Of a stretch of 47,513 nucleotides of DNA, positions 1,248 through 16,924 are shown in pieces (the first letter of the stretch is position 1; each line of letters begins with the position of its first letter). The notes below the pieces were generated by a model that was not told where the DNA came from, ran no database searches, and saw only the letters and a program-made list of their open reading frames with translations. The DNA comes from Sulfurovum sp. (lineage in GTDB: Bacteria > Campylobacterota > Campylobacteria > Campylobacterales > Sulfurovaceae). The DNA is taken from contig JALXCZ010000036.1 in assembly GCA_026990595.1 (NCBI GenBank), forward strand, positions 1 to 47,513. Direction: 5' to 3'. The position numbers and the translations under genes were made by a program.

Positions 1248-2162
1248 ATGCACTTTTTCAGTAAAATTCTATGTACAATTTTTTTGTTCAGTGCTCTCCT
1301 TGCTGCTAAAGGTGTACCGGCAGGTACACAGATACTCAATGTGGCACAGTTGAGTTATCAGGTCAATGGTTTTGATTTTAACACGACAAGCAATACGCTG
1401 GTTGATGTTGTCGATCAGGTATTGGATCTTGAACTTGTATGCCAATCTACCCAAAATATCATTGTGCAAAACGGTGAAGTGAAACGTGCATTGCCTTTTG
1501 TTCTGGAAAATATAGGAAACGGTACAGACAATTTTTCTCTGACTCCCGACACCAATGCCTCAAGCCCTGAAGTAGACAATAGACTTATCTTTCTTGATGA
1601 TGGTGATGGGGTGTTCAACAGTGCAGATGTACAGGTGAACGATATTAACTTGACAGCAGACCAGAAAGCAACACTCTTCTTTGTTAGTGACATTCCTGCT
1701 TCTGCTGCCTGGCAGTATTCCCATAACGGGATCGAAGCCAGATCAACCATAGGCGGTTCGGGAATACCCGGAAAAGACTACAATGTGAGTAACGGTACAG
1801 AGAACTATTATGCAGTAGACGGATACAAAGGCGGGGTAGAGAGTGCTTTGTGTACTTATGAGATGAACCATCTGAATCTGATACTTAAAAAATCTGCCAC
1901 ACTCTCAAGTGACCGTCTGTTTACCGGTACGGTCATTCATTATCGCATAGAAGCAACAGTCAAAGGTGAGGGGACGGTTAGCAATATTGTCATTAAAGAT
2001 GTGATTCCCTCAGGTACAACGTATGTGCCCGGCAGTATTAAACTTGATGGTACAGCTGTTACTGATGCAGGACATTTTTCAGCCAATAGCATAGCTGTAC
2101 CTGTGAATGATATGACCAGATCAGATACCCATGTTGTAGAGTTTGATGTAAAGGTTAATTAA
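1248..2162 (+). CDS. Secreted DUF11-type beta-sandwich protein
   Basis: 304 aa. Residues 1-20 form a signal peptide ending LLAA before KGVPAG. Residues about 22-55 carry the motif TQILNVAQLSYQVN...TSNTLVDV, which recurs at the N-terminus of the products at 2898 and 3967. An acidic loop at 117-127 (DDGDGVFNSAD) resembles the Asp-rich calcium-type loops common in DUF11 proteins. From about 209 to the end is a DUF11 domain (VIHYRIEATV...VIKDVIPSGTTYVPGSI...HVVEFDVKVN), and the protein stops on its last predicted strand. The first gene of the surface locus; exported and probably part of a surface structure. The role is inferred; export and fold type are well supported. Confidence 0.85.
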   Translation: MHFFSKILCTIFLFSALLAAKGVPAGTQILNVAQLSYQVNGFDFNTTSNTLVDVVDQVLDLELVCQSTQNIIVQNGEVKRALPFVLENIGNGTDNFSLTPDTNASSPEVDNRLIFLDDGDGVFNSADVQVNDINLTADQKATLFFVSDIPASAAWQYSHNGIEARSTIGGSGIPGKDYNVSNGTENYYAVDGYKGGVESALCTYEMNHLNLILKKSATLSSDRLFTGTVIHYRIEATVKGEGTVSNIVIKDVIPSGTTYVPGSIKLDGTAVTDAGHFSANSIAVPVNDMTRSDTHVVEFDVKVN

Positions 2163-2164
2163 TG

Positions 2165-2208
2165 CTTCGATAAGCTCAGTTTCCGGTGGGAAGTTGAGCT
2201 TGTCGAAG
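2165..2208. repeat. REP-like inverted repeat, CTTCGA-TAAGCTCAG family, copy 1
   Basis: The arms are CTTCGATAAGCTCAG (2165-2179) and TTGAGCTTGTCGAAG (2194-2208) with a 14-nt loop. As RNA all 15 positions pair, two of them as G-U. It begins 3 bp after the stop of the 1248 gene. The second copy is at 2805-2855, so the 155-aa gene lies between the two. The core is, from memory, a widespread palindromic repeat in many bacterial genomes. Confidence 0.85.
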
Positions 2209-2246
2209 ACAAAATCGGAAGACAAAATTGATCAAAAAGGAAAAAT

Positions 2247-2714
2247 ATGATAAAAAAATTATTTACAAGTTTAATGATAGCCTCGTCTGTGATGGTTATG
2301 GGTCTGTATGCAGATGTAACCATTAAGTCACACTCTTACCAGAAAGTGGTGAAGAAAAAGAAAGCAAAATGGGTCAAAGCAACCAAAGTTGTACCCGGTT
2401 CTGTAGTACTTTATATGAATACTTTAAAAAACAGAGGTAAAGAGACAGCGCAAAACCTCACAGTGGTCAATGCAATACCTGCACATATGAACTATGTCAA
2501 AGGTACAGCAAAATGTAAAAGCAAATGCAGTGTGACCTACTCGGTAGATGGCGGTAAAACATTCAATAAACCTAAAAAACTTTTTGTCAAAGACAAAAAG
2601 ACAAAGAAAATGAGACATGCAAAAGCAAAAGAGTATACGACCATCAAATGGGTAGTTGCCAAACTTAAGGGTGGTAAAAAAACCACAGTACAGTACAAAG
2701 CTAGATTGCAATAA
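2247..2714 (+). CDS. Small lysine-rich secreted single-domain DUF11 protein
   Basis: 155 aa. Residues 1-22 look like a signal peptide (MIKKLFTSLMIASSVMVMGLYA). The mature part is one DUF11-like unit: VVPGSVVLYMNTLKNRGKE, then NLTVVNAIPAHMNYVKGTAK, then a final strand TTVQYKARLQ at the C-terminus. By my count about 34 of 155 residues are lysine, so it is strongly basic. A CKSKC pair near residues 91-95 could form a small disulfide. The start has a good SD (AAAAGG near 2235-2240). It is flanked by two copies of the same palindromic repeat and followed by a 45-bp palindrome. Possibly a polyanion- or polysaccharide-binding matrix subunit; that is inference. Confidence 0.82.
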   Translation: MIKKLFTSLMIASSVMVMGLYADVTIKSHSYQKVVKKKKAKWVKATKVVPGSVVLYMNTLKNRGKETAQNLTVVNAIPAHMNYVKGTAKCKSKCSVTYSVDGGKTFNKPKKLFVKDKKTKKMRHAKAKEYTTIKWVVAKLKGGKKTTVQYKARLQ

Positions 2715-2729
2715 CTAAAGGATCATGGT

Positions 2730-2774
2730 TGACCCTTGAGGCGAACAGTTTAAGACTGTTTCCTTCAAGGGTTA
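2730..2774. repeat. 45-bp near-perfect palindrome (hairpin)
   Basis: The left arm 2730-2751 and right arm 2752-2774 pair almost fully with practically no loop. About 20 pairs form, including several G-U, with one C-C mismatch (2742/2762). It starts 15 bp after the stop of the 155-aa gene. There is no T-run behind it, so it is more likely a repeat element or mRNA-stabilising/processing hairpin than a classical terminator. Confidence 0.75.
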
Positions 2775-2804
2775 GACTTTGAGGACGAGAGGTGCTATTC
2801 TTCC

Positions 2805-2855
2805 CTTCGACAAGCTCAGGAACCGAGTGTTTTACGGTATCTGAGCTTGTCGAAG
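2805..2855. repeat. REP-like inverted repeat, CTTCGACAAGCTCAG family, copy 2
   Basis: Perfect 15-bp arms CTTCGACAAGCTCAG (2805-2819) and CTGAGCTTGTCGAAG (2841-2855) around a 21-nt loop. Same family as 2165-2208. The right arm runs to 43 bp before the start codon of the next gene, so an upstream ATG at 2847 inside the repeat is not a credible start. Confidence 0.88.
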
Positions 2856-2884
2856 ATAGAGATGGCAAGAAAAAATCATGAAAC

Positions 2885-2891
2885 AAAGGAG
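2885..2891 (+). promoter_or_regulatory. Shine-Dalgarno site fixing the start at 2898
   Basis: AAAGGAG lies 6 nt before ATG 2898. The encoded signal peptide MKKSLVIASVMLFGFIGANA begins exactly there, while the upstream in-frame ATG at 2847 is inside the palindromic repeat and has no SD. Confidence 0.85.
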
Positions 2892-2897
2892 TTACTC

Positions 2898-3896
2898 ATG
2901 AAAAAGAGTTTGGTAATAGCATCGGTGATGCTGTTTGGATTTATAGGGGCAAATGCGGCTATGACTGCGCCGGGAACGGACATTAACAATACAGCAACAT
3001 TGAGTTATGACGTAAACGCTGTTCATCAAACAGCAGTTGATGCAAGTGATGCCGGATTTAAAGTTGATAGAAAGATAGATGTAGAGGTAGCAAATACAGA
3101 TGCAGCAAAAACAGTAGATGTAACACCAGGTGCAACAGACCAAAATTTACATTTTACTATTGCCAATAAAGGTAATGACCAGGAAGAGTATACATTAAGT
3201 TATGCCGATATCGCTTCTGGAGATCAGTTTGATCCTACCAATTGCCAGATCGATGCAGGAGCAGGATTTGTTAACTTTACAACAACAATCACTATTGCAG
3301 CTGAAACCAATTCAAGTGTCACTGTACAGTGTGATATTCCTGCACAGGGAACTGTACATAATGATGATAACGGAACTATTGTTCTTACTGCAACAGTCAA
3401 TAATCGCACAAAAGCAAATGATGATGTAGATGATCCAGCAGTTGTTCAAGATGTGTTTGCTGATGGGGCAGGAGAAACGGATGCTGTTAATAATGGTGAC
3501 TATTCAGATAGAGGAACTTATCATGTAGTAAGTGCTGACTTAAGTTTGGCGAAAACATCTATTGTTACAGAAGATCCTGTTCATGCTGCAGGTGGAGCAG
3601 CAAAGCCACACAGAATACCTGGTGCAACGGTACGTTACTGTTTTGTTGTAGATAACAACGGTTCAGCAAGTGCAGATAATGTGAAGATTGCAGATGACTT
3701 TACAGCGGATAATAAAAGTGATTTAACTGTAGTTAAAGCAGGTTACACGGTACAGCCAAATACAAATGCTTGTGACTGTACTGCTGATGGTACAGACGCA
3801 GGTGTTGCAGCAGGTGCAACAAATGTAGAGATTACAGTAACACCCCTAAATGCAGGACAGAGAGAGTGTGCTTATATAGAAGCAACAGTGAACTAA
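2898..3896 (+). CDS. Secreted DUF11-type protein with shared C-terminal module
   Basis: 332 aa from ATG 2898. A signal peptide (about 1-20, ending GANAA) is followed by the N-terminal motif TDINNTATLSYDVN shared with the 1248 and 3967 products. The middle is acidic, rich in Asp, Thr and Ala, and predicted to be all beta. The last 120 residues (DNA about 3532-3893) form the C-terminal module shared with the 8562 and 10114 products: LAKTSIVTEDP, RIPGATVRYCFVVDN, ADNVKIAD, NACDCTADG, ECAYIEATVN. Its four cysteines (YC, CDC, EC) could make two disulfides. A strong hairpin follows (3902-3926), which could leave this transcript more abundant than the large downstream gene. Probably a major surface subunit; function inferred. 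Confidence 0.83.
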   Translation: MKKSLVIASVMLFGFIGANAAMTAPGTDINNTATLSYDVNAVHQTAVDASDAGFKVDRKIDVEVANTDAAKTVDVTPGATDQNLHFTIANKGNDQEEYTLSYADIASGDQFDPTNCQIDAGAGFVNFTTTITIAAETNSSVTVQCDIPAQGTVHNDDNGTIVLTATVNNRTKANDDVDDPAVVQDVFADGAGETDAVNNGDYSDRGTYHVVSADLSLAKTSIVTEDPVHAAGGAAKPHRIPGATVRYCFVVDNNGSASADNVKIADDFTADNKSDLTVVKAGYTVQPNTNACDCTADGTDAGVAAGATNVEITVTPLNAGQRECAYIEATVN

Positions 3897-3901
3897 CATC
3901 T

Positions 3902-3926
3902 CATTCCCATCGAAATGATGGGAATG
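3902..3926 (+). terminator. Intercistronic stem-loop (possible attenuating terminator)
   Basis: A perfect 10-bp stem, CATTCCCATC (3902-3911) with GATGGGAATG (3917-3926), closes a GAAAT loop directly after the 2898 gene. What follows is A/T-rich but not a clean T-run. It could partially terminate, or protect the 3' end of the upstream mRNA. Confidence 0.55.
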
Positions 3927-3966
3927 GGTCTAATAAAAATAATAAAATAAAAGAAAGGAGAAATAG

Positions 3967-6900
3967 ATGATAATATTAACATATTTACGCAGTATGCTAT
4001 TGTCTCTCTTTCTCCTTTCTTCTGTTTTATGGGGTGCAAATGTAGGAAATATCATCTCCAACACGGCAACATCGACCTATGTCATCAACAGTATAGACAA
4101 GAACAGTACCTCAAACGAAGTGAATCTTACCGTTGAGGGAACAGATGCGACCATAGAGTTCTTGAGTGCTGATCCGCATGGGGAGCAGACGCATATGCTG
4201 GGCGCAAGTGCTTATCTGGGAAGTGATGGCAGTTGGCACACCATGCCGGCACCCACACTTTCAAACGGCACAGTGCTGAGTACCACCGTGCCTATAGGCA
4301 TGACAGATACCAATGCCTATAATATAGATGACCTCTCTCTTATTAAAGTTACAGATGCTGATCAGAATGTTGACAGTAGTGTACGCGATACTATTGATGT
4401 AAATATCACTTCGCCTTCAGGCGATAGTGAGACCGTAAGGCTCATAGAGACAACTCCCAACAGTGGTATATTTACCGGTTATATTGTACTAACCAACAGC
4501 AGTAGCAGCCATGGAGACGGCAGACTGCATGTTGAAGTAGATGAGCATATAGATGTTGCATATGATGACCAGGGGGTTGCTGCACGAACGGACAGTGCCA
4601 TTATTGCTCAGCAAAAAGAGTTGAAAGTCTGGATAGAAAAACAGGTCAATAAAGAGGTTGCAAGTGTAGGCGAAATACTACTTTATACCATAACTGTACA
4701 CAATGATGAGAGTTTTGTACTGAGAAATATGCAAGTGGATGACCATATGCCGCTTGGGTTAAAATATAAAAGTGGTACGGCGAAAATAGATGGGGTAAAG
4801 ACTACACCGACACTCTCCAAAGATGGCAAGCATCTTTATTTCATCATTCCTGTGTTGCCTGCAAACGGCAGTGTGAAGATCACCTTTATAGCCCAAATAG
4901 GTGCAGGAGTACATAACCATGAAATAGCAAATGTTGCCATGGTCAATGATTCAGGCTGTCCTCTGCCAATGGCGAAAATACTTAATGGATCTGACAAAAT
5001 AATCAATATACCAAATTTTGCTGCACGCAGATGTGTGTTCAGTTCCAACAAAGCAGTGGCAAGAACACGCATACAAGAAGAGTTGATGCGAAGCAAAGGC
5101 ATCATTATAGGTCAAGTGTATGAATGTGCTTATAAAAAGAATAAAAAAGGACATGGTGTAGCCAATGTAAGACTTTATATGGAAAATGGTACCTATGTTG
5201 TGACAGACAGGAATGGTAAATACCATATAGAGGGTGTAGATGCAGGTACACATGTGGTTCAGGTAGATGAGGATATGCTGCCAAACGGCTATGTTATGGG
5301 AGATAATGCCCATCATGCACGTTTTGCAGGACGCGCCTTTTCGCAGTTCGTAGATGTGGGAAAAGGTGCACTCAAAAGAGTGGATTTCTGCTTGGATCGT
5401 ACCGTTAAAGTGAAACAGGATGCCAATGCAACGAAAGTTGAAAGTAAAATAGCAGATATCTATGACTATAAAATACCTACATCTTTACCGCACATGCCTA
5501 AATATAACCGTGGACACTTACGAAACCTCAGAGGAAAAACAGAGATACTCTGGCCGCCTGAGAAATTTGTACCGAGCATTCCCAGTACACGTATAGCTGT
5601 TGTGCACAAAAAAGATCAAAAAGCTGAAGTATGGTTGAACGGGCAAAAAGTCAGTATGCTTAACTATGAGGGCAGGGTAACAGACAGTAATAACTCCACA
5701 GTGATAGATACCTACAAAGGTGTGGATCTGCTTGATCAGACCAATACCATCACGGTACGTTTATTGGATAAGCAGAACAGACTTCTGAAGCTGTTAAGAC
5801 GCACTTTGCATGTTTCCACTGCCCCTGCAAAAATAGAATATGTGGAGAAAAACTCATTCGCAGTAGCAGACGGTAAACATTCTCCGGTCATTGCGGTGAA
5901 ATTCATAGATGCAGACGGTTATCCGCTTCGTACAGGGATCACAGGGACATTCAGTATTGAGAGTCCGTATCAGTCACAGGTTGCCCTGGATCAGTTGCAG
6001 GAAGATCCTCTGGGTAGCACTGCAGGTGAAAATAGATATACCATCGATTCAGATGGTATAGCCTACATTAAACTGCAACCGACAACACAGTCGGGTACGG
6101 CAACACTGCACTTTAAGATACAAGACAGAGACGAAGTCATCCGTGCATGGCTGAAACCGCAGCTTCGTGAGTGGATCATGGTAGGATTTGCCGAGGGTAC
6201 GGTAGGTTACAATACACTCAAAGGACATAAAGAATCTTTAGCATCCATCGATGCAGAAGACAAAGTTGTTACCCAGGGTAGAGTCTCTTTCTTTGCAAAA
6301 GGGCGCGTTAAAGGTGAGTGGCTGCTTACCATGGCATACGATAGTGGCAAAGATACAAAAAATTCAAAACTTTTTGATGAGATAGACCCAAATACCTACT
6401 ATACGCTTTATAATGACGCTTCAGTACAGAATTATGAAGCATCTTCGAGAAAAAAACTCTATCTCAAAATAGAAAAAGAGCGTTTTTCTGCACTTTTGGG
6501 TGACTTTAATACAGATATGACTGTCACAGAACTTTCACAGTATTCTCGACGTATGACAGGGATCAAAAGTGAATACCATGGAGAGAATCTGGAGGTCAAT
6601 GCTTTTGCAGCACATACAGACCAACTTTTTATGAAAGACGAGATAAGAGGGGACGGAACTTCTGGTTTCTACCACCTTAAAAACAAACCTGTTGTGCGTA
6701 ACAGTGAATCTGTAACCATAGAGGTTAGAGACCGTTATCATAATGAACGTATCATTGAGAAAAAAAGTCTGCAGAGATTTAGAGATTATGAGATCGACTA
6801 TGACAGGGGGACACTCTATTTCAAAGAGCCGATCTACAGTAATGATAAAAATTTCAACCCCAGATTCATCGTGGTGGATTATGAGACAGAAGGTGACGGG

Positions 6901-8568
6901 AGCAAACATTATACCTATGGCGGCAGAGCCGCTGTAAAGGTACATGGTGGTGCAGTGGAAGTAGGCGGAAGCTACATCTATGAAGATACGGCAAAAAAGA
7001 AGAGTGAACTCTACGGAGCAGATACTACTGTTAAAGTGGGCACACATACAGTGATGAAAGCTGAGTATGCAAAAACAAAAACCACACAGGACGGCAATAC
7101 GACCTATGGTGATGCGAAACTGGCAGAAATAGAATATATCGCAAACGGGCTCTATGTCAGAGGGTATTACCGTGAACAGGAAGATGCTTTTGGCTTGGGT
7201 CAGATAAGTTCCAGTCTGGGTGCTACAAGGAAGTTCGGGTTGGATGCCACAAAAACATTTGAAAACCGTCTTCTTCTTAAAGCTTCAGCCTATAGAGATA
7301 CGGATCTGTTGAATGATAAAGACCAGGATGTATTTGAGACAAGGGTACAGATGAATCAGACTTTGTGGTCTGCCTATATGGGATACAGATATGCAAACAA
7401 TACAGACAGTGCAGCAGTACACCAAATATTACTGGGGGCTTCTTATGCTTTCTTTGATCAGAGGTTGAAACTTTCAGTGACTCATGATCACTCTTTTGGA
7501 AAAGATGAAGACAAGCTTTTCCCTACCAAGACAACAGTGGGTGTTGATTATGCCGTGACATCAAATGTAAATCTTTTTGCCAATTACGAATGGGCAAAAG
7601 GGCGGGATGACCATGAGCTTGGACGTGTAGGACTGCGTTACAGACCTTGGTCTGGTATGACGTTTGAAAATACGACCGTCAGTGAATTTAGCAATGACAC
7701 CACACGTATTTACAATACACTGGGTATGATGCAAACCTATCAGTTCAACAAGAACTGGAGTTTTAATATAGGATATGAAAAAGGTCAGCTTCTTGATGGT
7801 AATCTCACTGATGAAGAAGATACATTCGATGCCTACCGTTTAGGGGTCAATTATCATACAGACACATGGACGGCTCTGATCAACGGTGAATACAGAAATG
7901 GTGGGAAAGAAAATAAATATAATATCACCGCAGGGATCTATACCCAGGCAAATGAAGCACTGGCACTGGCATTAAGTGCAGGCTACAATAAAGTCTATAA
8001 TGATTTTAAAAGCCAAAAAGATGCGAATCTGCGCTTCTCTCTTGCCTACAGACCCCAACAAACAAACTGGATAGTGCTGGATAAGCTGGACTATATCCAT
8101 AATACTACAGTTGAAACAAGTGATTCGACAGGGCTGACTACAAGAATAAGAACAGAAAAGATCATTAATAATCTCAATTTAAACTACACACCAAGTAATG
8201 ATTTTGAGATCTCGTTCCAGCATGGTATAAAGTATGTAGCAGATACGGTAGAGTCTTATGAACATACCGGGATTACACAACTTTTCGGTATAGATACCCG
8301 TTATGACCTGACAGAAAAATGGATGATAGGTGCACAGGGATCTGTTCTTTATGCACAAAGTGCAGACAACTGGGATTATGGTTTTGGACTCTATACAGGA
8401 TATAACATTTTTGAAAATATGCTTCTTACTCTGGGGTATAACTGGGAAGGTTTTGAAGACAGGGATTTCTCTTTGCAGACCTACCGCATAGAAGGACCGT
8501 ATTTGCAGTTTAAAATGAAGTTCGATCAGAAGAGTTTGAAAGATATGGTTAGGTTAATGTCATGGTAG
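3967..8568 (+). CDS. Large predicted outer-membrane protein: DUF11 stalk plus long barrel-like C-terminus
   Basis: 1533 aa. ATG 3967 has AAAGGAG 5 nt upstream and a signal peptide ending VLWGANVG. Order: N-terminal motif NIISNTATSTYVIN (about 25-45), a beta-rich region with DADQNVDSSVRDTI and ETTPNSGIFTGYI (about 60-215), DUF11 (about 218-330), a carboxypeptidase-regulatory/SdrD-B-like domain (about 375-478, GVANVRLYMENGTYVVTDRN), an Ig/Big-like stretch (about 560-730), then from about 735 to the end repeated short amphipathic strands rich in Tyr, Trp and Asp with Gly/Asn turns, as in outer-membrane barrels. It ends in Trp after a basic tail rather than the usual terminal Phe. It overlaps the 8562 gene by 7 bp. 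Likely the membrane platform of the locus; the barrel is inferred from pattern only. Confidence 0.8.
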   Translation: MIILTYLRSMLLSLFLLSSVLWGANVGNIISNTATSTYVINSIDKNSTSNEVNLTVEGTDATIEFLSADPHGEQTHMLGASAYLGSDGSWHTMPAPTLSNGTVLSTTVPIGMTDTNAYNIDDLSLIKVTDADQNVDSSVRDTIDVNITSPSGDSETVRLIETTPNSGIFTGYIVLTNSSSSHGDGRLHVEVDEHIDVAYDDQGVAARTDSAIIAQQKELKVWIEKQVNKEVASVGEILLYTITVHNDESFVLRNMQVDDHMPLGLKYKSGTAKIDGVKTTPTLSKDGKHLYFIIPVLPANGSVKITFIAQIGAGVHNHEIANVAMVNDSGCPLPMAKILNGSDKIINIPNFAARRCVFSSNKAVARTRIQEELMRSKGIIIGQVYECAYKKNKKGHGVANVRLYMENGTYVVTDRNGKYHIEGVDAGTHVVQVDEDMLPNGYVMGDNAHHARFAGRAFSQFVDVGKGALKRVDFCLDRTVKVKQDANATKVESKIADIYDYKIPTSLPHMPKYNRGHLRNLRGKTEILWPPEKFVPSIPSTRIAVVHKKDQKAEVWLNGQKVSMLNYEGRVTDSNNSTVIDTYKGVDLLDQTNTITVRLLDKQNRLLKLLRRTLHVSTAPAKIEYVEKNSFAVADGKHSPVIAVKFIDADGYPLRTGITGTFSIESPYQSQVALDQLQEDPLGSTAGENRYTIDSDGIAYIKLQPTTQSGTATLHFKIQDRDEVIRAWLKPQLREWIMVGFAEGTVGYNTLKGHKESLASIDAEDKVVTQGRVSFFAKGRVKGEWLLTMAYDSGKDTKNSKLFDEIDPNTYYTLYNDASVQNYEASSRKKLYLKIEKERFSALLGDFNTDMTVTELSQYSRRMTGIKSEYHGENLEVNAFAAHTDQLFMKDEIRGDGTSGFYHLKNKPVVRNSESVTIEVRDRYHNERIIEKKSLQRFRDYEIDYDRGTLYFKEPIYSNDKNFNPRFIVVDYETEGDGSKHYTYGGRAAVKVHGGAVEVGGSYIYEDTAKKKSELYGADTTVKVGTHTVMKAEYAKTKTTQDGNTTYGDAKLAEIEYIANGLYVRGYYREQEDAFGLGQISSSLGATRKFGLDATKTFENRLLLKASAYRDTDLLNDKDQDVFETRVQMNQTLWSAYMGYRYANNTDSAAVHQILLGASYAFFDQRLKLSVTHDHSFGKDEDKLFPTKTTVGVDYAVTSNVNLFANYEWAKGRDDHELGRVGLRYRPWSGMTFENTTVSEFSNDTTRIYNTLGMMQTYQFNKNWSFNIGYEKGQLLDGNLTDEEDTFDAYRLGVNYHTDTWTALINGEYRNGGKENKYNITAGIYTQANEALALALSAGYNKVYNDFKSQKDANLRFSLAYRPQQTNWIVLDKLDYIHNTTVETSDSTGLTTRIRTEKIINNLNLNYTPSNDFEISFQHGIKYVADTVESYEHTGITQLFGIDTRYDLTEKWMIGAQGSVLYAQSADNWDYGFGLYTGYNIFENMLLTLGYNWEGFEDRDFSLQTYRIEGPYLQFKMKFDQKSLKDMVRLMSW

Positions 8569-10112
8569 AAAAAAGTAAAATAATATTTTTTATAATAATA
8601 TTTTCTTCTTTACTTTCTGCAGCTCCATTGCAATATTTGGCAAAAAGTATCGGCCCTGATTTAGGTGGTAATGCTAACGGATTTGAAAATGTATCCACAG
8701 CATTTCATAGTGATTATCATCGCTCAAGTGGAGTGTATGATGATGCGTTGGACGAACATGTTCCTATAGGATTCAGTTTTCCTTTTAATGGGAGCACTTA
8801 CAATGAAATAATTATTTCATCTAATGGGATACTTTATTTGCGTACAAGTGGTGCTTTCAACAATGACAGTGAGCGATCTGCAGCAGCAGATTACACCAAT
8901 CGTCAGTTAAACAGTTCAAGTACGCCCGATAATGCTATAGTACCTTACTGGGATGATCTTTATCCAAGTGCCAGCGGTACAAAAAAGACAATAAAATATG
9001 ATACTTTAGGATCTGGAGATGGTAAACATTTTGTTGTCTATTGGAATGAAGTACCACGCTATGGTAACAGTAATTCACAATATACATTTCAAATTGCCCT
9101 CTATAAAGATGGTACAATTAAATATAGATATAAAGATGATAACAACAATGATGCGGATGGAAATTCTGCTACGATAGGTGTCAAAGAAGATTCAAGCCAT
9201 TATGATCAGAATACATATAACACCTCTAATATTGATCAAGGTAAGGATATCGTCTATCGTCCATATAGGCATTTGACTCCTGTAAGCCCGGCATGTCAAA
9301 CACCTGTACCCAAGATAGGTATGCAGACATTTCATCAGAATGATGCCCATCCAAAAGATGAATATGAATTTATTACATTAAGACAAAACAATACTAATCC
9401 ATTTGGAAGCGGATACCAAGATCAGATCAATGGAAGTGGCAATCCATATGGGAATAATGATAAGTATTGGAGTAAATTTCATGGATATATTTATCTTCCG
9501 GATACAGGTATCTACCAGTTTGGGGTAGATGGAGATGATGCTGTAGAAGTTTATCTTGATGATAAACTTATTACCGGATGGTATGGAGGACATGGAAAAC
9601 ATAATCATGCAGAATATGTGATCAATGTAGATGCACAGGCAGGATGGCATAAGATACGTTTCTATCAGGAAGAACGAAATGGTGGAGACAACTACTATCT
9701 TTACTGGAAACGACCGGGAGGCAGTATGGAAATTGTCCCCTCTTCCCGCTTTTTTCATTGTCTTCCTGATCTTTCCAAAACATCTTGTGTAATAAATGAT
9801 CCTGTTAATGGTACTACAAAACCAAAAAGAATTCCTGGAGCTACTATACGGTATGCCTTATTGGTAGACAATACTACGGATGATACTATGGATAATGTAA
9901 TAGTAGAAGATACTGTATCAAGTGATTTTGATGCAGCATCTATTAAGAATCTTCAGATACAAAGTGGGGACTGTGACTGTATAGGTGTTTCTTCTGCAAG
10001 TAGTAATGGTGCAAACGGTACTGCAGATGGAGTAAATCCTGTAAAGCTTGACTATGGAAGTGTGAGTGACAACTCTAAAGAGTGTGGGTATTTTGAAGTA
10101 GATATAAAGTGA
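8562..10112 (+). CDS. Secreted PA14-domain protein with shared C-terminal module
   Basis: 516 aa. Signal peptide 1-21 (ending LLSAA). Residues about 35-235 form a beta-sandwich with VPIGFSFPFNGSTYNEIIISSNG and NAIVPYWDDLYP, resembling nidogen-like domains. Residues about 255-400 look like PA14 (YWSKFHGYIYLPDTGIYQFGVDGDDAVEVYLDD, then GWHKIRFYQEERNGG), a fold that often binds carbohydrate. Residues 401-516 are the module shared with the 2898 and 10114 products, but the YC cysteine is replaced (YALLVDN, A432) and a new cysteine appears at KTSC (C409); C471, C473 and C508 are kept. It ends in Lys. The start overlaps the barrel gene, so it is probably translationally coupled. Domain calls are from motif memory. 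Confidence 0.85.
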   Translation: MVEKSKIIFFIIIFSSLLSAAPLQYLAKSIGPDLGGNANGFENVSTAFHSDYHRSSGVYDDALDEHVPIGFSFPFNGSTYNEIIISSNGILYLRTSGAFNNDSERSAAADYTNRQLNSSSTPDNAIVPYWDDLYPSASGTKKTIKYDTLGSGDGKHFVVYWNEVPRYGNSNSQYTFQIALYKDGTIKYRYKDDNNNDADGNSATIGVKEDSSHYDQNTYNTSNIDQGKDIVYRPYRHLTPVSPACQTPVPKIGMQTFHQNDAHPKDEYEFITLRQNNTNPFGSGYQDQINGSGNPYGNNDKYWSKFHGYIYLPDTGIYQFGVDGDDAVEVYLDDKLITGWYGGHGKHNHAEYVINVDAQAGWHKIRFYQEERNGGDNYYLYWKRPGGSMEIVPSSRFFHCLPDLSKTSCVINDPVNGTTKPKRIPGATIRYALLVDNTTDDTMDNVIVEDTVSSDFDAASIKNLQIQSGDCDCIGVSSASSNGANGTADGVNPVKLDYGSVSDNSKECGYFEVDIK

Positions 10113-10113
10113 G

Positions 10114-12060
10114 ATGGCTATGAGAGGAATATTTTGGTTATTTATTGCTTCTTTCTTCTCCTTGTTTCTTCAGGCAGAAGTTATTACCTCAGACTTGGAA
10201 TATCAGAGAATAAGTGGAGTTGGTTACAGTTGGCAAACGGTCAATCTAGGTAACAGTTACAGTGATGCCATAGTAGTATGTACCAATGTTCTGGCAAACA
10301 AAACAGATAATGAAGCAGTAGTACGCATCAGGAATATTAATTCCAGCAATTTTCAGGTGAAAATTCAGCATCCAAATGACAGTGATCCCGGTTACAGTAC
10401 GGATGTCTACTGTATCATCTCAGATGAAGGTAGCTATACAATTCCCTTTAAATACGAAGCACACAAGGTACTCTCAGATAATACCAATGGAAATACAAGC
10501 CCAAATAACTGGAGTGCAGCAAGAGCAGAAGAGGTTACGGGCAGTGTGACACAGTCCTATACAAAGCCCGCAGTACTTGGTCAGGTGATGAGTTATAATG
10601 ATCATAGATTTTCGATTTTTTGGTCTTTTAACTGTCAAAACAGAAACAGAAGACCCTTTCAAAGTAATAACAGAATATGTGTAGGAAAGCATGTAGGACA
10701 GATAGGGCAAACCCGTAATAATGAAACTTTGGGTTATTTTGTAGCTGAAGCCGGGATCTATGAACTGGAAGACTTTTCTATGGCGGTGAACTATGGGGGA
10801 GACAGTATTCGGGGTATTGGCAACAACCCACCTTACAGTTATACTCTGGATAAGGCATATACGGACGGCATTGTGCATCAGGAAGCTGAAGATGGCGGAC
10901 AAGGAGGATGGGCAGTCCTCTATGGTGCAGCACCGTTTGGTACATCATTGGATATGGGGATTGATGAAGAAACGGTACAAGGAGATACTACACGTACCCA
11001 CACGACTGAAGAAGTAGCCTATTGGGTAATGCTGAATGATCCGGTTACACCGGCAGAACTGGTGATAAATGAAGTACTTTACCGGCAAACAACAAATGGC
11101 AGCAACAATGATGAGTTTGTAGAGTTTTATGTGACACAAGGGGGTGATCTGAAAAATTATCTTTTCACAGATCAAGATGGAGCAAGTCATCATTACCGTT
11201 TCCCAAAACATACAGTCAGTACAGGCGATTATGTGATTTTACATATCGGCAGTGGTACAGATAGTACTGTTGGAAATGTACATCATTTTTATATAGGGCG
11301 TTCAGAGATATTGAATAATGGGGGAGATGATGTTTCTTTATATCGACCCGTAAATACAGATATTACCATTGTGGACAATCAGCCACTCAGTGTTATTCCA
11401 AGTGATTACATGGCTTATGGGAGTGGAGGAGCTGTAGATAGCATATCTACAAGCCAACTTGGGGTAACGGTAAACTGGAGTGGGGGTGAAAATAGCCGAC
11501 TAAGTGGGGCAGGTACAGGTGAGTCCATCGCCTTGACTCCCAATGCAAATGACAGTGATACTTCTCTATGCTGGGAACTTTCTGCTACAACGGTTGCAAG
11601 TAAAAAAGCAACAAACTGTACAAACTATATACCTACCCGAGATACCAATACCAATGCCGGACAGACCAATTCTATCACTCTCAGTAACACAGCCATGCCC
11701 GATATGCACATCACCAAAACCTCTATCGTTACAGCAGACGGAGTAAATGCTACACATCCAAAACGTATTCCCGGTGCCACGATCCGTTATTGTTTTACGG
11801 TAGATAATACAGGGGAGGGGAATGCAGACAATGTCAAGATAAATGATTCGCTTGCAGGCAACGGGAAGGACAACCTAATGTATGTCAGATCGGGGAAAGT
11901 CATTCAGGATATAGCGACGGTCTGTGATTGTGCGGCTATTTCTGACACCTCAGGCAGCATAAGCGGTACGGATGTAACGATAAATGTAGGTACACTCACC
12001 GGAACCGGTGCGACAGCTACATCAAGAGGGTGTGCCTATATAGAGACGACTGTGAAATGA
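10114..12060 (+). CDS. Secreted lectin-like / lamin-tail-domain protein with shared C-terminal module
   Basis: 648 aa. ATG 10114 starts 1 bp after the previous stop; a second ATG at 10120 is possible. The signal peptide ends FLQAEV. Residues about 25-120 (GYSWQTVNLGNSYSDAIVVC ... AVVRIRNINSSNFQVKI) resemble H-type lectin-like beta domains. Residues about 312-495 (AELVINEVLYRQ, NDEFVEFY, GDYVILHIG, LNNGGDDVSLY) fit a lamin-tail domain, common in secreted bacterial proteins. Residues about 528-648 are the shared module with all four cysteines (IRYCFTVDN, VCDCAAIS, GCAYIETTVK) and a C-terminal Lys. Probably a surface cargo protein using the same attachment route as the 8562 product. Confidence 0.82.
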   Translation: MAMRGIFWLFIASFFSLFLQAEVITSDLEYQRISGVGYSWQTVNLGNSYSDAIVVCTNVLANKTDNEAVVRIRNINSSNFQVKIQHPNDSDPGYSTDVYCIISDEGSYTIPFKYEAHKVLSDNTNGNTSPNNWSAARAEEVTGSVTQSYTKPAVLGQVMSYNDHRFSIFWSFNCQNRNRRPFQSNNRICVGKHVGQIGQTRNNETLGYFVAEAGIYELEDFSMAVNYGGDSIRGIGNNPPYSYTLDKAYTDGIVHQEAEDGGQGGWAVLYGAAPFGTSLDMGIDEETVQGDTTRTHTTEEVAYWVMLNDPVTPAELVINEVLYRQTTNGSNNDEFVEFYVTQGGDLKNYLFTDQDGASHHYRFPKHTVSTGDYVILHIGSGTDSTVGNVHHFYIGRSEILNNGGDDVSLYRPVNTDITIVDNQPLSVIPSDYMAYGSGGAVDSISTSQLGVTVNWSGGENSRLSGAGTGESIALTPNANDSDTSLCWELSATTVASKKATNCTNYIPTRDTNTNAGQTNSITLSNTAMPDMHITKTSIVTADGVNATHPKRIPGATIRYCFTVDNTGEGNADNVKINDSLAGNGKDNLMYVRSGKVIQDIATVCDCAAISDTSGSISGTDVTINVGTLTGTGATATSRGCAYIETTVK

Positions 12061-12116
12061 TGCACAATTTCTTCACAGAAAAAAGTTAGACTTAAAAAGA
12101 GTTAGGAGAATACACT

Positions 12117-12611
12117 ATGAGATATAAGATAAGAGGGATACTTTTTGGGTTATTGATTATATCAATACCTCTTTGGGCATATCAGGAAATAGTAGTTGAT
12201 CTCTCTGAGCAGAAAGCCTATGCGATAGAAGATGGGTATATAGTATTTGAAGGGCGTATCTCATCGGGGAAAATAGGCAGAGAAACTCCAAACGGTGAAT
12301 TCAAGATACTTCAAAAAAAACGTAAACATGTTTCAAACCTCTGGCCAAAACCAAATGGTGGAGCAAAAATGCCCTATATGATGCGTCTGACAAATAGTGG
12401 TATTGCGATGCATCTGGGGTATGTACCCAACAGACCTGCTTCACACGGATGTATTCGTCTTAAGAACGGTTTTGCACAAAAAATGTATCGATGGGCAAGA
12501 GTAGGAACACCTGTGTATGTAGAAGGAGATGCACGTGACTATTTGGATGCAAAACGATTTGCAAAAGAGTATTACGGTGATGAATATGGGATTGTTGATT
12601 ATCATGATTAA
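12117..12611 (+). CDS. Periplasmic L,D-transpeptidase (YkuD family)
   Basis: 164 aa with a signal peptide (about 1-21, ending SIPLWAY) and a YkuD domain over the rest. It opens with the typical EIVVDLSEQKAYAIEDG strand pair and carries the catalytic motif HLGYVPNRPASHGCIRL, with Cys in SHGCIR as nucleophile. Family members form 3-3 peptidoglycan cross-links or attach proteins to meso-diaminopimelate. SD GGAG lies near 12105 and the gene follows the lectin/LTD gene by 56 bp in the same direction. Its place beside exported proteins, two ending in Lys, makes a protein-anchoring role possible but unproven. Domain call secure; substrate unknown. Confidence 0.92.
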   Translation: MRYKIRGILFGLLIISIPLWAYQEIVVDLSEQKAYAIEDGYIVFEGRISSGKIGRETPNGEFKILQKKRKHVSNLWPKPNGGAKMPYMMRLTNSGIAMHLGYVPNRPASHGCIRLKNGFAQKMYRWARVGTPVYVEGDARDYLDAKRFAKEYYGDEYGIVDYHD

Positions 12612-12668
12612 TGCTTTGTTAATGTGATAACAATATAATAAAGCTCATTTATAAAAAAGGAAAATAGA

Positions 12669-13088
12669 ATGAATAAAATAATATTAATTTCAATGGTGGC
12701 AGCTTCAGCACTTTTTGCCGATATGGCAACAGGTATAGTAAAAGACGTAGCAGTTTCCAAAGCTAAAGCACAAGTGAAAGAGACAGTGATCAAGAAGGTT
12801 GCAGGCGATGACCCCGTAAAACAGGCAGTAGCCAAAAAAGTAGCTGACAAGGTAGTAGGTGAGCCCAGTATGGCTGATAAAGTAAAAGGTGCAGTAGCAG
12901 ATAAAGTGATGCAGGGTGATGCAGAGGGTAGTTCAGGTGTTGTAGACAAAGTTGTCAAAGGTGCTACCAAAACAAAAGAGCCATCTCTCAAAGACAAAGC
13001 TGTTGATATGGCTGCCCAAAAAGCAGTTGGCTCAAATCCTCTTAAAAAAGCAGCAGCAAAAGAGGCGATCAAGTCTTTGGCGCATTAA
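12669..13088 (+). CDS. Small exported Ala/Lys-rich helical protein
   Basis: 139 aa. The N-terminus MNKIILISMVAASALFA is a signal peptide; there is no lipobox. The mature part is almost all helix formers and repeats a short unit of the type (A/V)DKV(V/K)xxA (VADKVVGEP, MADKVKGAVADKVMQG, VVDKVVKGA, LKDKAVDMAAQKAVG), giving amphipathic helices. No known domain is recognised. It follows the L,D-transpeptidase by 57 bp with SD AAAAGG and is closed by a hairpin at 13097. It might be a periplasmic helical spacer or a peptidoglycan-associated partner of that enzyme; this is guesswork. The opposite strand is also open here but is a shadow. Confidence 0.75.
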   Translation: MNKIILISMVAASALFADMATGIVKDVAVSKAKAQVKETVIKKVAGDDPVKQAVAKKVADKVVGEPSMADKVKGAVADKVMQGDAEGSSGVVDKVVKGATKTKEPSLKDKAVDMAAQKAVGSNPLKKAAAKEAIKSLAH

Positions 13089-14293: not shown

Positions 14294-14860
14294 TTACTGT
14301 ACGCGTTTAAAACTTTTTAAAATTAATAGTATTACAACGATCTCAATGCCAACAAGTAAAAAATGCAAAAAATAGACTTGATTCTGATTACTTACAATAC
14401 CATAGTGTGCTATGATCTTATAGAAAAGATAGGAGACACCCATACCTAAAAGGTATCCTAATTGTTTCACCGTATCAAGTCTGGTTAAGAGTATATCTGT
14501 TTTAAGTAACAGTGTTTCTGCCCTTACAAGGTAAGAGCCGAAAACAAAGGTGATCTGATATCCTATATAAATGATAAGTGCTGTTTGATAAGTGTAGGGA
14601 GAGGAAAGAAAATAGAGCATAGCCAAAAGCAGAATGATCTCTACAAAAAGAGAGATCCTGAAAAACCATTTGGTATTGAGAATGGTATGGTAGAGTCTTG
14701 CAATAAAAAGCATCCCTAAAGCAAGCACTACTCCGCCAAGTGAATAGACGGAAGGCTTAAGCGGTGCATACAGCGTAAAGATGGCTCCTACACTCAATCC
14801 CAAAAAGAGGGAGTTGAAAAATTTATATCTGATGAACCATTCCGGAAGTAGAGTTAGCAT
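14294..14860 (-). CDS. Polytopic inner-membrane protein next to the TonB receptor
   Basis: 188 aa with about six hydrophobic spans (roughly 14-32, 36-54, 65-82, 86-108, 130-147 and 163-183). Loops between spans carry Arg and Lys, e.g. LLKTDILLTRLDTVKQLGY, reminiscent of half of an MFS-type transporter, but no signature motif is visible. It starts 12 bp after the stop of the TonB-dependent receptor on the same strand, so it is probably the same operon and may move the receptor's substrate across the inner membrane. Family not recognised with certainty. Confidence 0.7.
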   Translation of the reverse strand: MLTLLPEWFIRYKFFNSLFLGLSVGAIFTLYAPLKPSVYSLGGVVLALGMLFIARLYHTILNTKWFFRISLFVEIILLLAMLYFLSSPYTYQTALIIYIGYQITFVFGSYLVRAETLLLKTDILLTRLDTVKQLGYLLGMGVSYLFYKIIAHYGIVSNQNQVYFLHFLLVGIEIVVILLILKSFKRVQ

Positions 14861-14872
14861 AAGTGATTATAC

Positions 14873-16723
14873 CTAAAAGCTGTATTTGATCTTAGCGTAG
14901 ATCGCTCTGCCTTCAGTTGCGTATCCGTAAACAGATTGATACTCTTTATCGAAAATATTTTTGGCATGAATGGATACATCTAAATTTTTCATGATCTTTG
15001 TACCGAAATTAAGATTCCATAACGTATAGTTTCCTGTTGAAACATTGGATGCAACAGGATAGCCACCGTCTGTATCTACACGATCACCGATATACTTGGC
15101 ATTGATACCAAAGTGTGTATTGGTATCTGTATAATAATCTATTGCTGCATTAATAGTGTCTTTTGCACGTCTGACAAGATTTGTTCCATCTTCTTTTTTG
15201 TATTTAAAGAGGTGTGTATAATTTGCAGAGAGATTAAGGTTTAATGATGCGACAGCATAGCTTCCTGAGAGTTCCAAACCTGAAAATTTTGATTTTCCAC
15301 TCACATTATAATAACCAAAATTAGTCATATCGTAATCAATACTATCTTCCACTTTATTGTTAAAGTAAGTTATAGAAAGAAGCTTTTTATAGTCTGCGGA
15401 AATATCAAACCCTTTGGTATAACTTGGTTTAAGTGAGGTACCAAAGATAGTATTAGCCAATTGATAAGAGCTGGGTGCATCATAGGATGTATAATAATTT
15501 GCAGAAGTGGTAAATCCTTCCAGAAAATCATGATGATGCTTCAGACCTATTTTATAGGTTGCTTTGTTGTTAAATGTACTATAGTTGTCATATCTGAGAT
15601 TGGTTTCCAAAAGTGTATTATGATTGATATTGTAGGTATTTGACAGGTAAACAGCTTTGTTGCTGTAGTCTGCCTGACTCTTAGGAAAGGTATTATATTG
15701 GTTAAATCCGTCTATGTCTTTATACTCTAAACCAAGTACAGCTTTACCGTTTGTATAAGAATATGCATTGATAAATGTATACTCTTTTAATGTTGCTTTG
15801 TAAACATTATGTCCGTCACCATAGAATCCTGTTGTGTAATAGTCTCTGTTATATTTCCCTTTACTGGCATGTAAAATAGTACTGTAATTATCAAGAGTAA
15901 AATAATAATCCAATGCAATATTGCTTTGGTCAGATGTTGCATGAGAGTAGTCATCGTTAGCATGTCGTGCAGAAAAACTGTCATCATACTCTGTTTTGGT
16001 CTTGATACGATTGTAATGAATATCTATCTTGTTATAGGTATCGAAAGCATATCCAAGTTTTATAGTGTAATTTTTATTTTCATATCCGTCATCTTCTGCC
16101 GATCTTGGTGTCAGTGCAGAAAAACCGTTTGTTTTCAAATAAGAAGCTATGACCTGTGCTGTAATCTTCTCATCTTTATACATAAGGTCTGCATCAGCAC
16201 CTTTTGTTGTATAAGAGCCGTAACGCAATGCGAGTGAACCGTGTAGTCCGTCTTTTGCTCCTTTTGTGATGATGTTGATCACCCCTGCACTGGCATTGGA
16301 ACCCCAAATACTGCTGCTGCCGCCTTTGATAATCTCAATGCGTTCGATGTTGCTTGTTGTAAGACTTTCAAGAAGGGCTGTACCATTGGTTGTGCTTGGA
16401 TCATTTAAACGCATGCCGTCTAAAAGGACAAGTACTTTCCCTGAGTCAGCTCCTCTGACAAAGAAAGAGGTACTTTGTCCTAAGCCACCGGCATGGTTTA
16501 CCGAGATACCGGCTACTGTACTGATAGCCTGAGAAACAGTCTGATAGCCATTCTCTTCTATCTCTTCAGCTGTGATCACTGTTACTTGTGAAGTAGTGTC
16601 TTTAATGGATTGAGGGGTTTTATTTGTAGAGATAACCGTGATCGGCTCTAAGGTTTCATCTGCAAAAGTGCTGTTTGTTAAAAGCAGTGTAGCTGTAATT
16701 AGGCAGAGTGGTTTAATTTTCAT
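14873..16723 (-). CDS. TonB-dependent outer-membrane receptor, BtuB-like
   Basis: 616 aa from ATG 16723, chosen because AAGGAA (16731-16736, minus strand) lies 7 nt upstream and the signal peptide MKIKPLCLITATLLLTNSTFA begins there; an upstream in-frame ATG at 16765 lacks these. The plug domain (about 25-150) has PITVISTNKTPQSI, VTVITAEEIEENGYQTV, FVRGADSGKVLVLLDGMRLND and RIEIIKGGSSSIWGSNASAGVINIIT, all standard for BtuB/CirA-like receptors. A 22-strand-type barrel follows and ends in YSF, the usual outer-membrane beta signal. The substrate is likely a cobalamin- or siderophore-type ligand. No cobalamin-riboswitch B12 box was found upstream; a REP-like element (16755-16924) lies there instead. 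Confidence 0.93.
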   Translation of the reverse strand: MKIKPLCLITATLLLTNSTFADETLEPITVISTNKTPQSIKDTTSQVTVITAEEIEENGYQTVSQAISTVAGISVNHAGGLGQSTSFFVRGADSGKVLVLLDGMRLNDPSTTNGTALLESLTTSNIERIEIIKGGSSSIWGSNASAGVINIITKGAKDGLHGSLALRYGSYTTKGADADLMYKDEKITAQVIASYLKTNGFSALTPRSAEDDGYENKNYTIKLGYAFDTYNKIDIHYNRIKTKTEYDDSFSARHANDDYSHATSDQSNIALDYYFTLDNYSTILHASKGKYNRDYYTTGFYGDGHNVYKATLKEYTFINAYSYTNGKAVLGLEYKDIDGFNQYNTFPKSQADYSNKAVYLSNTYNINHNTLLETNLRYDNYSTFNNKATYKIGLKHHHDFLEGFTTSANYYTSYDAPSSYQLANTIFGTSLKPSYTKGFDISADYKKLLSITYFNNKVEDSIDYDMTNFGYYNVSGKSKFSGLELSGSYAVASLNLNLSANYTHLFKYKKEDGTNLVRRAKDTINAAIDYYTDTNTHFGINAKYIGDRVDTDGGYPVASNVSTGNYTLWNLNFGTKIMKNLDVSIHAKNIFDKEYQSVYGYATEGRAIYAKIKYSF

Positions 16724-16754
16724 TTTGTTTTTCCTTATTTTTTGTAGGTTTTTA

Positions 16755-16924
16755 CTCGTTCCCATGCTTTGCGTGGGAATGCATATTTAAATTTTAAAAT
16801 AATGCCTACCCATTGCTAGATGCAAAATGAGTAAATTGTGTTTTTATTACCACTTAACGGTGGAATTGAATTTGGATGTAATTTATAGTGCCGTATGCAT
16901 TCCCACGGAGACCGTGGGAACGAG
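16755..16924. repeat. 170-bp REP-like inverted pair upstream of the TonB receptor
   Basis: Two 30-nt palindromic units in inverted order: 16755-16784 and 16895-16924. Each has the core TTCCCA...TGGGAA ending in ATGCAT on the inner side. The right unit is a perfect 9-bp hairpin (TTCCCACGG-AGA-CCGTGGGAA). The units match at 25 of 30 positions, differing only in the centre. They enclose a 110-bp AT-rich segment with no gene. This layout recalls REP doublets moved by RAYT transposases, none of which is present in the window. Confidence 0.82.

Follow-up and report, generated by a model that had tools for sequence, protein, structure and literature searches.

Bacterial surfaces commonly display proteins with DUF11 domains, and for few of these is a route of export or anchoring known. 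How a bacterium with an outer membrane might carry such proteins out and hold them there is the question raised by a locus of Sulfurovum sp. (Campylobacterota). The window analyzed here is the whole stretch of 47,513 nucleotides on contig 36 (JALXCZ010000036.1) of assembly GCA_026990595.1, a genome of 2.05 Mb that is 99.8% complete. As a preliminary description of this DNA had reported, positions 1248–13088 hold eight plus-strand open reading frames (ORFs), and the products of all eight have N-termini that, judged by eye, resemble Sec-type signal peptides. All DUF11 matches of the whole genome are confined to this locus. Our analysis redraws the real unit as four core genes (1248–8568), encoding p304, p155, p349, and a 1533-amino-acid stalk-and-barrel protein, followed by genes for two cargo-like proteins, p516 and p648 (8562–12060). 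The balance of the evidence tilts toward this locus being a platform in the outer membrane dedicated to surface proteins of the DUF11 type. The features of the unit are as follows.

1248–2162, plus strand: p304, an exported protein with an N-domain and a C-terminal DUF11 domain; core gene 1
2247–2714, plus strand: p155, a small exported single-DUF11 protein; core gene 2
2898–3896, plus strand: p349, an exported protein with an N-domain and the C-terminal module; core gene 3
3546–3893, plus strand: C-terminal module of p349
3967–8568, plus strand: stalk-and-barrel protein of 1533 amino acids; core gene 4
4633–4950, plus strand: DUF11 domain of the stalk (amino acids 223–328)
5143–5268, plus strand: CarboxypepD_reg or SdrD_B-like domain of the stalk (amino acids 393–434), weak in the 1533-amino-acid protein and stronger in relatives
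6148–8565, plus strand: barrel region (amino acids ~728–1533), with about 36 predicted antiparallel strands
8562–10112, plus strand: p516, the cargo-slot protein, with a nidogen-like and PA14 head and the C-terminal module
9762–10109, plus strand: C-terminal module of p516
10114–12060, plus strand: p648, a second cargo-like protein, with a lamin-tail domain and the C-terminal module
11698–12057, plus strand: C-terminal module of p648

Family searches with Pfam and NCBIfam models place DUF11 in p304 (E 4e-6), p155 (E 8e-7), and the 1533-amino-acid protein (E 1e-8), with weak DUF11 or DUF7507 matches in p349, p516, and p648. Pfam also finds PA14 and, weakly, a nidogen-like domain in p516, and a lamin-tail domain in p648. 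The p349 frame is open from a TTG at 2847; its start is probably at 2898 (MKKSL...).

The genes are bound together by their distribution. In a set of 298 Campylobacterota genomes, each at least 90% complete, strong matches to the barrel (E < 1e-100), the module (E < 1e-20), and p155 (E < 1e-40) occur in exactly the same eight, always within the barrel locus, and the search for module proteins in genomes lacking the barrel, proposed in the preliminary description, returned none. The eight genomes span six genera and two families. A naive hypergeometric calculation puts the probability of this co-occurrence at 7e-16, a value that ignores gene linkage and shared descent; given this linkage and the relatedness of some genomes, true independence is smaller than the figure implies. 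Among named relatives of the barrel, the closest belong to Sulfurovum assemblies, and loci also occur in other Campylobacterales. Wherever the left flank of a Campylobacterota locus is intact, p304, p155, and p349 stand in this order upstream of the barrel on the same strand, and little else is shared around them. An exception is locus L024, which reads p349, p304, p155, barrel; in locus L087 of genome G266, p304 and p155 are masked by overlapping ORFs in the ORF list, and p155 is still found there. That the barrel, the module proteins, and p155 are partners is thus well supported by their shared genomic occurrence.

Nor is the cassette peculiar to Campylobacterota: judged by homology and gene order, it is also present in Pseudomonadota, Cyanobacteriota, and Deinococcota. 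Novosphingobium sp. THN1 carries, in the same order, p304, p155, p349 (frame-disrupted, with the module signature), a stalk-barrel gene, and a DUF11-ended gene. Acinetobacter has a related cassette as well. In two cyanobacteria, a p304-like N-terminus and a p155-like gene (E 1e-18 to 1e-22) are accompanied by stalk and barrel as separate genes and by a gene containing DUF11. A Deinococcus p155-like query finds Thermus and Deinococcus records, and on plasmid pTT27 of Thermus thermophilus HB8 the order is TTH_RS10905 (p155-like), TTH_RS10910, TTH_RS11750 (stalk), TTH_RS10920 (barrel), and TTH_RS10925 (DUF11). Compared with the family profile, the barrels of Deinococcota reach 100% probability over 857 columns. 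Among plasmid records, relatives go under the annotations DUF11, SdrD B-like, OmpA family, or TonB-dependent receptor.

Several variants accompany these relatives. A second architecture sets a giant multi-DUF11 protein beside a separate barrel of about 1170–1330 amino acids (L033, L092, L089, L093); it is found in Nitratireductor, Sinorhizobium meliloti, Vibrio campbellii, and Roseovarius plasmids, and some of its barrels are annotated as TonB-dependent receptors. Genome G029 (locus L013, contig 31) holds, besides the four-gene cassette, a distant second version in which a giant DUF11-type protein of more than 2400 amino acids is followed by a separate barrel of 1169 amino acids. The separate stalk proteins of Deinococcota (L031, L091, L105, L106) share a terminal motif resembling DPxxRWRYP or RWRLP, perhaps a contact with the barrel. 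On an Acinetobacter plasmid (L029, 11174–12256), an OmpA-type protein, of a peptidoglycan-binding family, follows the barrel, and Sulfurovum has a transpeptidase further downstream; the two are possibly different links to the cell wall.

The barrel itself had been described as a barrel-like C-terminus, and modeling agrees: at modest confidence, the C-terminal half of the 1533-amino-acid protein is predicted to be a large transmembrane-type β-barrel rather than a soluble fold. The AlphaFold2 model, built on amino acids 520–1533 from an alignment of 12 sequences, has a mean predicted local distance difference test score (pLDDT) of 68 and a predicted template modeling score of 0.35, with model residues 214–347 mostly below a pLDDT of 50. 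Counting strands by hand from the model gives about 6 before a small inserted domain (amino acids ~889–952) and about 30 after it. Against known structures, the model matches outer-membrane and mitochondrial barrels (Foldseek E 5e-9; VIA Z 9–12), and nearly all Foldseek and VIA-align matches are membrane barrels, including LptD, MtrB, FimD, SlpA, TonB-dependent receptors, VDAC, and SprA; these matches speak for a fold class and not for one family. Over the barrel region, none of the Pfam or NCBIfam families rises above cut-off, in the window protein or in relatives from other phyla, and a sequence comparison with solved structures yields no match at E ≤ 10. The stalk that precedes the barrel is immunoglobulin (Ig)-like, with DUF11, SdrD_B-like, and invasin-like domains, and its DUF11 domain resembles that of p304 (hhalign, 98%).

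The smaller proteins fall into more than one kind. Five C-termini of a single type had been claimed for the locus; all-against-all comparison narrows this to a module of about 118 amino acids common to p349, p516, and p648 only (34–46% identity), the C-termini of p304 and p155 being ordinary DUF11 domains. The signature of the module is KxSxVxxDPVNGTTNPKRIPGATIRY, and its end reads, for example, ECAYIEATVN. At the same time, p304 and p349 are homologous over their full length (hhalign, 99.9%), and p155 has a signature of its own, SxDGGKxF...A..EYTxVxW. Each of 28 modules has a cysteine at one of two alternative positions, on the first strand (KxSCV) in 17 and on the second (RYC) in 11, never both and never neither. 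Such a pattern is what would be expected if one putative disulfide partner were reachable from two neighboring strands. The AlphaFold2 model of p349 (mean pLDDT 58) consists of two β-sandwiches, with the module ending on the last strand; at that confidence its Foldseek matches, integrins and other Ig-like proteins, are uninformative.

Directly downstream of the barrel, the module is joined to varied heads. In nine loci the start of a cargo gene overlaps the stop of the barrel gene by 4–16 nucleotides, the overlap of p516 with the stop codon of the 1533-amino-acid protein being 7. The modules in this slot are 48–90% identical, and 19 of 36 pairs of heads share less than 25% identity, to be read against a baseline from reversed sequences with a median of 15 and a maximum of 26. 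Head types include PA14, nidogen-like, MAM-like, reelin/CBM-like (carbohydrate-binding), and lamin-tail domains. The barrel of genome G008 is 73% identical to that of the window, and the G008 head shares 17% with the window head and 62% with the head of G239; the G239 barrel has only about 32% identity, yet its head matches that of G008. Likewise, the head of the window p516 is 67% identical to the head of the distant G266. By these comparisons, heads switch between lineages and do not track descent, while the module stays. The early claim that varied heads sit on one constant C-terminus is supported for the module proteins, with heads crossing lineages. An address tag whose heads can be swapped would be expected to show this pattern.

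How these parts might work together can be outlined as follows. Sec would carry all of them to the periplasm, where the C-terminal half of the 1533-amino-acid protein is predicted to insert into the outer membrane as a very large barrel, its Ig-like stalk presumably serving as a docking site. Because of their strict gene linkage and homology, p304, p349, and the small p155 may build, with the stalk, the base of a surface structure. The cargo-like p516 and p648 would use as their address tag the cysteine-containing module that p349 also has, bearing heads that sequence comparison indicates to be exchangeable. We lean toward a barrel that both exports and anchors its partners rather than one that anchors only. 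A bolder proposal, which we advance tentatively and with more doubt than conviction, is that the cassette represents an unnamed secretion and assembly system of at least four phyla (Campylobacterota, Pseudomonadota, Cyanobacteriota, and Deinococcota, with barrel relatives in Omnitrophota), built on one of the largest single-chain barrels known and taking a C-terminal domain of the DUF11 type as the signal for export and anchoring.

Several observations weigh against a dedicated platform. Closure of the barrel and the number of its strands are approximate because model confidence is modest. The module is a DUF11-like Ig domain and could mediate protein contacts of any kind. Nor is the display of cargo universal: some loci (G029, G277, L020, L022, L026) end at the barrel with no cargo gene; others add one or two module-bearing genes. 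Finally, on plasmid P2 of D. gobiensis (L107, 9938–12006) a p155-like and a p304-like gene are paired with no barrel nearby, the sole exception seen; that strain's plasmid P3 carries the complete set.

Several described systems resemble the locus in part. The likeness to the type IX secretion system (T9SS) lies in a very large outer-membrane barrel, varied heads on a conserved C-terminal domain, and the presence of SprA among the structural matches, a fold-level resemblance that the barrel also has to many others. No NCBIfam match to SprA (TIGR04189) was found for the 1533-amino-acid protein at E ≤ 1; none was matched in its whole genome either, a search in which the control genomes likewise gave no match. 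In place of a T9SS sorting domain, the C-termini of p349, p516, and p648 match only DUF11-type models in NCBIfam and Pfam, the module here being a DUF11-like Ig domain, and the conserved p155 and p304 are not T9SS parts. The type 11 secretion system (Slam/DUF560) similarly ties an outer-membrane protein to surface cargo with a common C-terminal domain (PMC12282271), but there the cargo C-terminus is an eight-stranded barrel and here it is Ig-like; no matching Pfam or NCBIfam family was found on the barrel, and the 25 apparent DUF11 matches in that paper are nearly all DUF1194. Two-partner secretion was also considered and set aside, with no POTRA or Omp85-type Pfam family on the 1533-amino-acid protein. 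A different parallel is offered by GhpA and GhlA: DUF11 domains form the shaft of the grappling hook in Litorilinea, for which its authors suggest another export pathway, one independent of signal peptides (PMC13319060). Here too DUF11 beads would be building blocks of surface structures, and barrel relatives in rhizobia, Vibrio, and roseobacters adjoin giant multi-DUF11 proteins. GhlA, in contrast, is a single giant chain of 49 DUF11 domains in another type of envelope, with no barrel partner described (PMC13319060), and the window proteins carry about one DUF11 domain each.

Three other explanations share some of this evidence. The cassette might assemble fibers in the manner of a chaperone–usher system, with p304 and p349 polymerizing head to tail through N-domain and DUF11, p155 as chaperone or cap, p516 and p648 as tips, and the barrel as assembly pore. 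We regard this as unlikely, even though p304 and p349 are homologous throughout, p304 has the DUF11 type of the stalk, the usher FimD is among the structural matches, and DUF11 domains do build filaments in grappling hooks (PMC13319060). The gene arrangement is also reminiscent, in that a single large barrel gene is accompanied by several exported Ig-like proteins and lectin-like tips. A domain inserted close to strand 6 of the model prompted a direct comparison with FimD/SfmD, which gave an hhalign probability of 0.1% (the usher alignment comprising two sequences); Pfam finds no usher family (PF00577) on the barrel at E ≤ 1 and no two-domain periplasmic chaperone among the locus proteins. Indeed p155 is a single domain, unlike such chaperones, and the modeled module looks, at low confidence, like a complete Ig fold with no missing strand.

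The barrel might instead be a self-standing giant adhesin, exporting and holding its own stalk in autotransporter fashion, while its neighbors are adhesins or matrix proteins of the same operon that leave by another route. Its Ig-rich stalk is like those of adhesins, and stalk and barrel form one chain in Campylobacterota, Acinetobacter, and Omnitrophota. They are separate genes, however, in cyanobacteria, Deinococcota, and the giant-DUF11 relatives, and module and p155 accompany the barrel more strictly than loose operon sharing would explain, so we hold this account to be quite improbable. As for a type Va autotransporter proper, Pfam gives no PF03797 match and the predicted barrel is far larger. 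A channel for nutrient uptake or binding, with accessory surface binding proteins, is the least credible, and we give it very little weight: some relatives are annotated as TonB-dependent receptors and the heads resemble carbohydrate- or protein-binding domains, but the predicted barrel is much larger, no transporter or enzyme genes are kept beside it, and it matches neither the TonB plug (PF07715) nor the receptor family (PF00593), both of which are matched by a true receptor nearby (14873–16765). Overall, the family tests give no ground for membership in the type IX, usher, autotransporter, two-partner/Omp85, or type 11 systems, though the working may be similar. The initial statement that no machinery of a described system is recognizable stands after these tests and the literature searches; no description of the cassette was found in the open literature searched, which takes in few subscription papers and no preprints.

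Two genes at the downstream end, both initially counted as members, were rejected on their distribution relative to the barrel.

12117–12611, plus strand: L,D-transpeptidase (YkuD), a peripheral neighbor kept in Sulfurovum loci only
12669–13088, plus strand: small exported protein of 139 amino acids, judged to lie outside the system

The transpeptidase (YkuD match, E 1e-24) is not specific to the locus, because close relatives, 54–74% identical, sit in nine same-genus genomes without the barrel. The gene for the 139-amino-acid protein is excluded because it is present in three barrel-less genomes and absent from other same-genus barrel genomes. Further downstream, the TonB-dependent receptor mentioned above is an ordinary one on the minus strand, and the gene beside it (14294–14860) is also found downstream of locus L011. 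On the other flank, a tRNA-Asn gene (896–970) lies about 280 nucleotides upstream of p304, and relative L010 has two tRNA-Asn genes there; the site is possibly one of integration, other loci being without tRNA-Asn. A perfect sigma-70-like promoter match (12/12) stands at 829–857, just upstream of this gene, apart from which a promoter and terminator scan is near shuffled expectation. Among 50,697 phage records, none matches the barrel.

The question of how DUF11 proteins are exported and anchored becomes directly testable with this cassette, because the barrel is strictly linked to its partners, the cassette is kept across phyla, and it is present in Thermus thermophilus HB8, a laboratory strain that is harmless and genetically tractable. 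If our interpretation is true, bacteria with an outer membrane would possess an additional route for decorating their surfaces, one in which heads are naturally exchanged on a fixed C-terminal tag.

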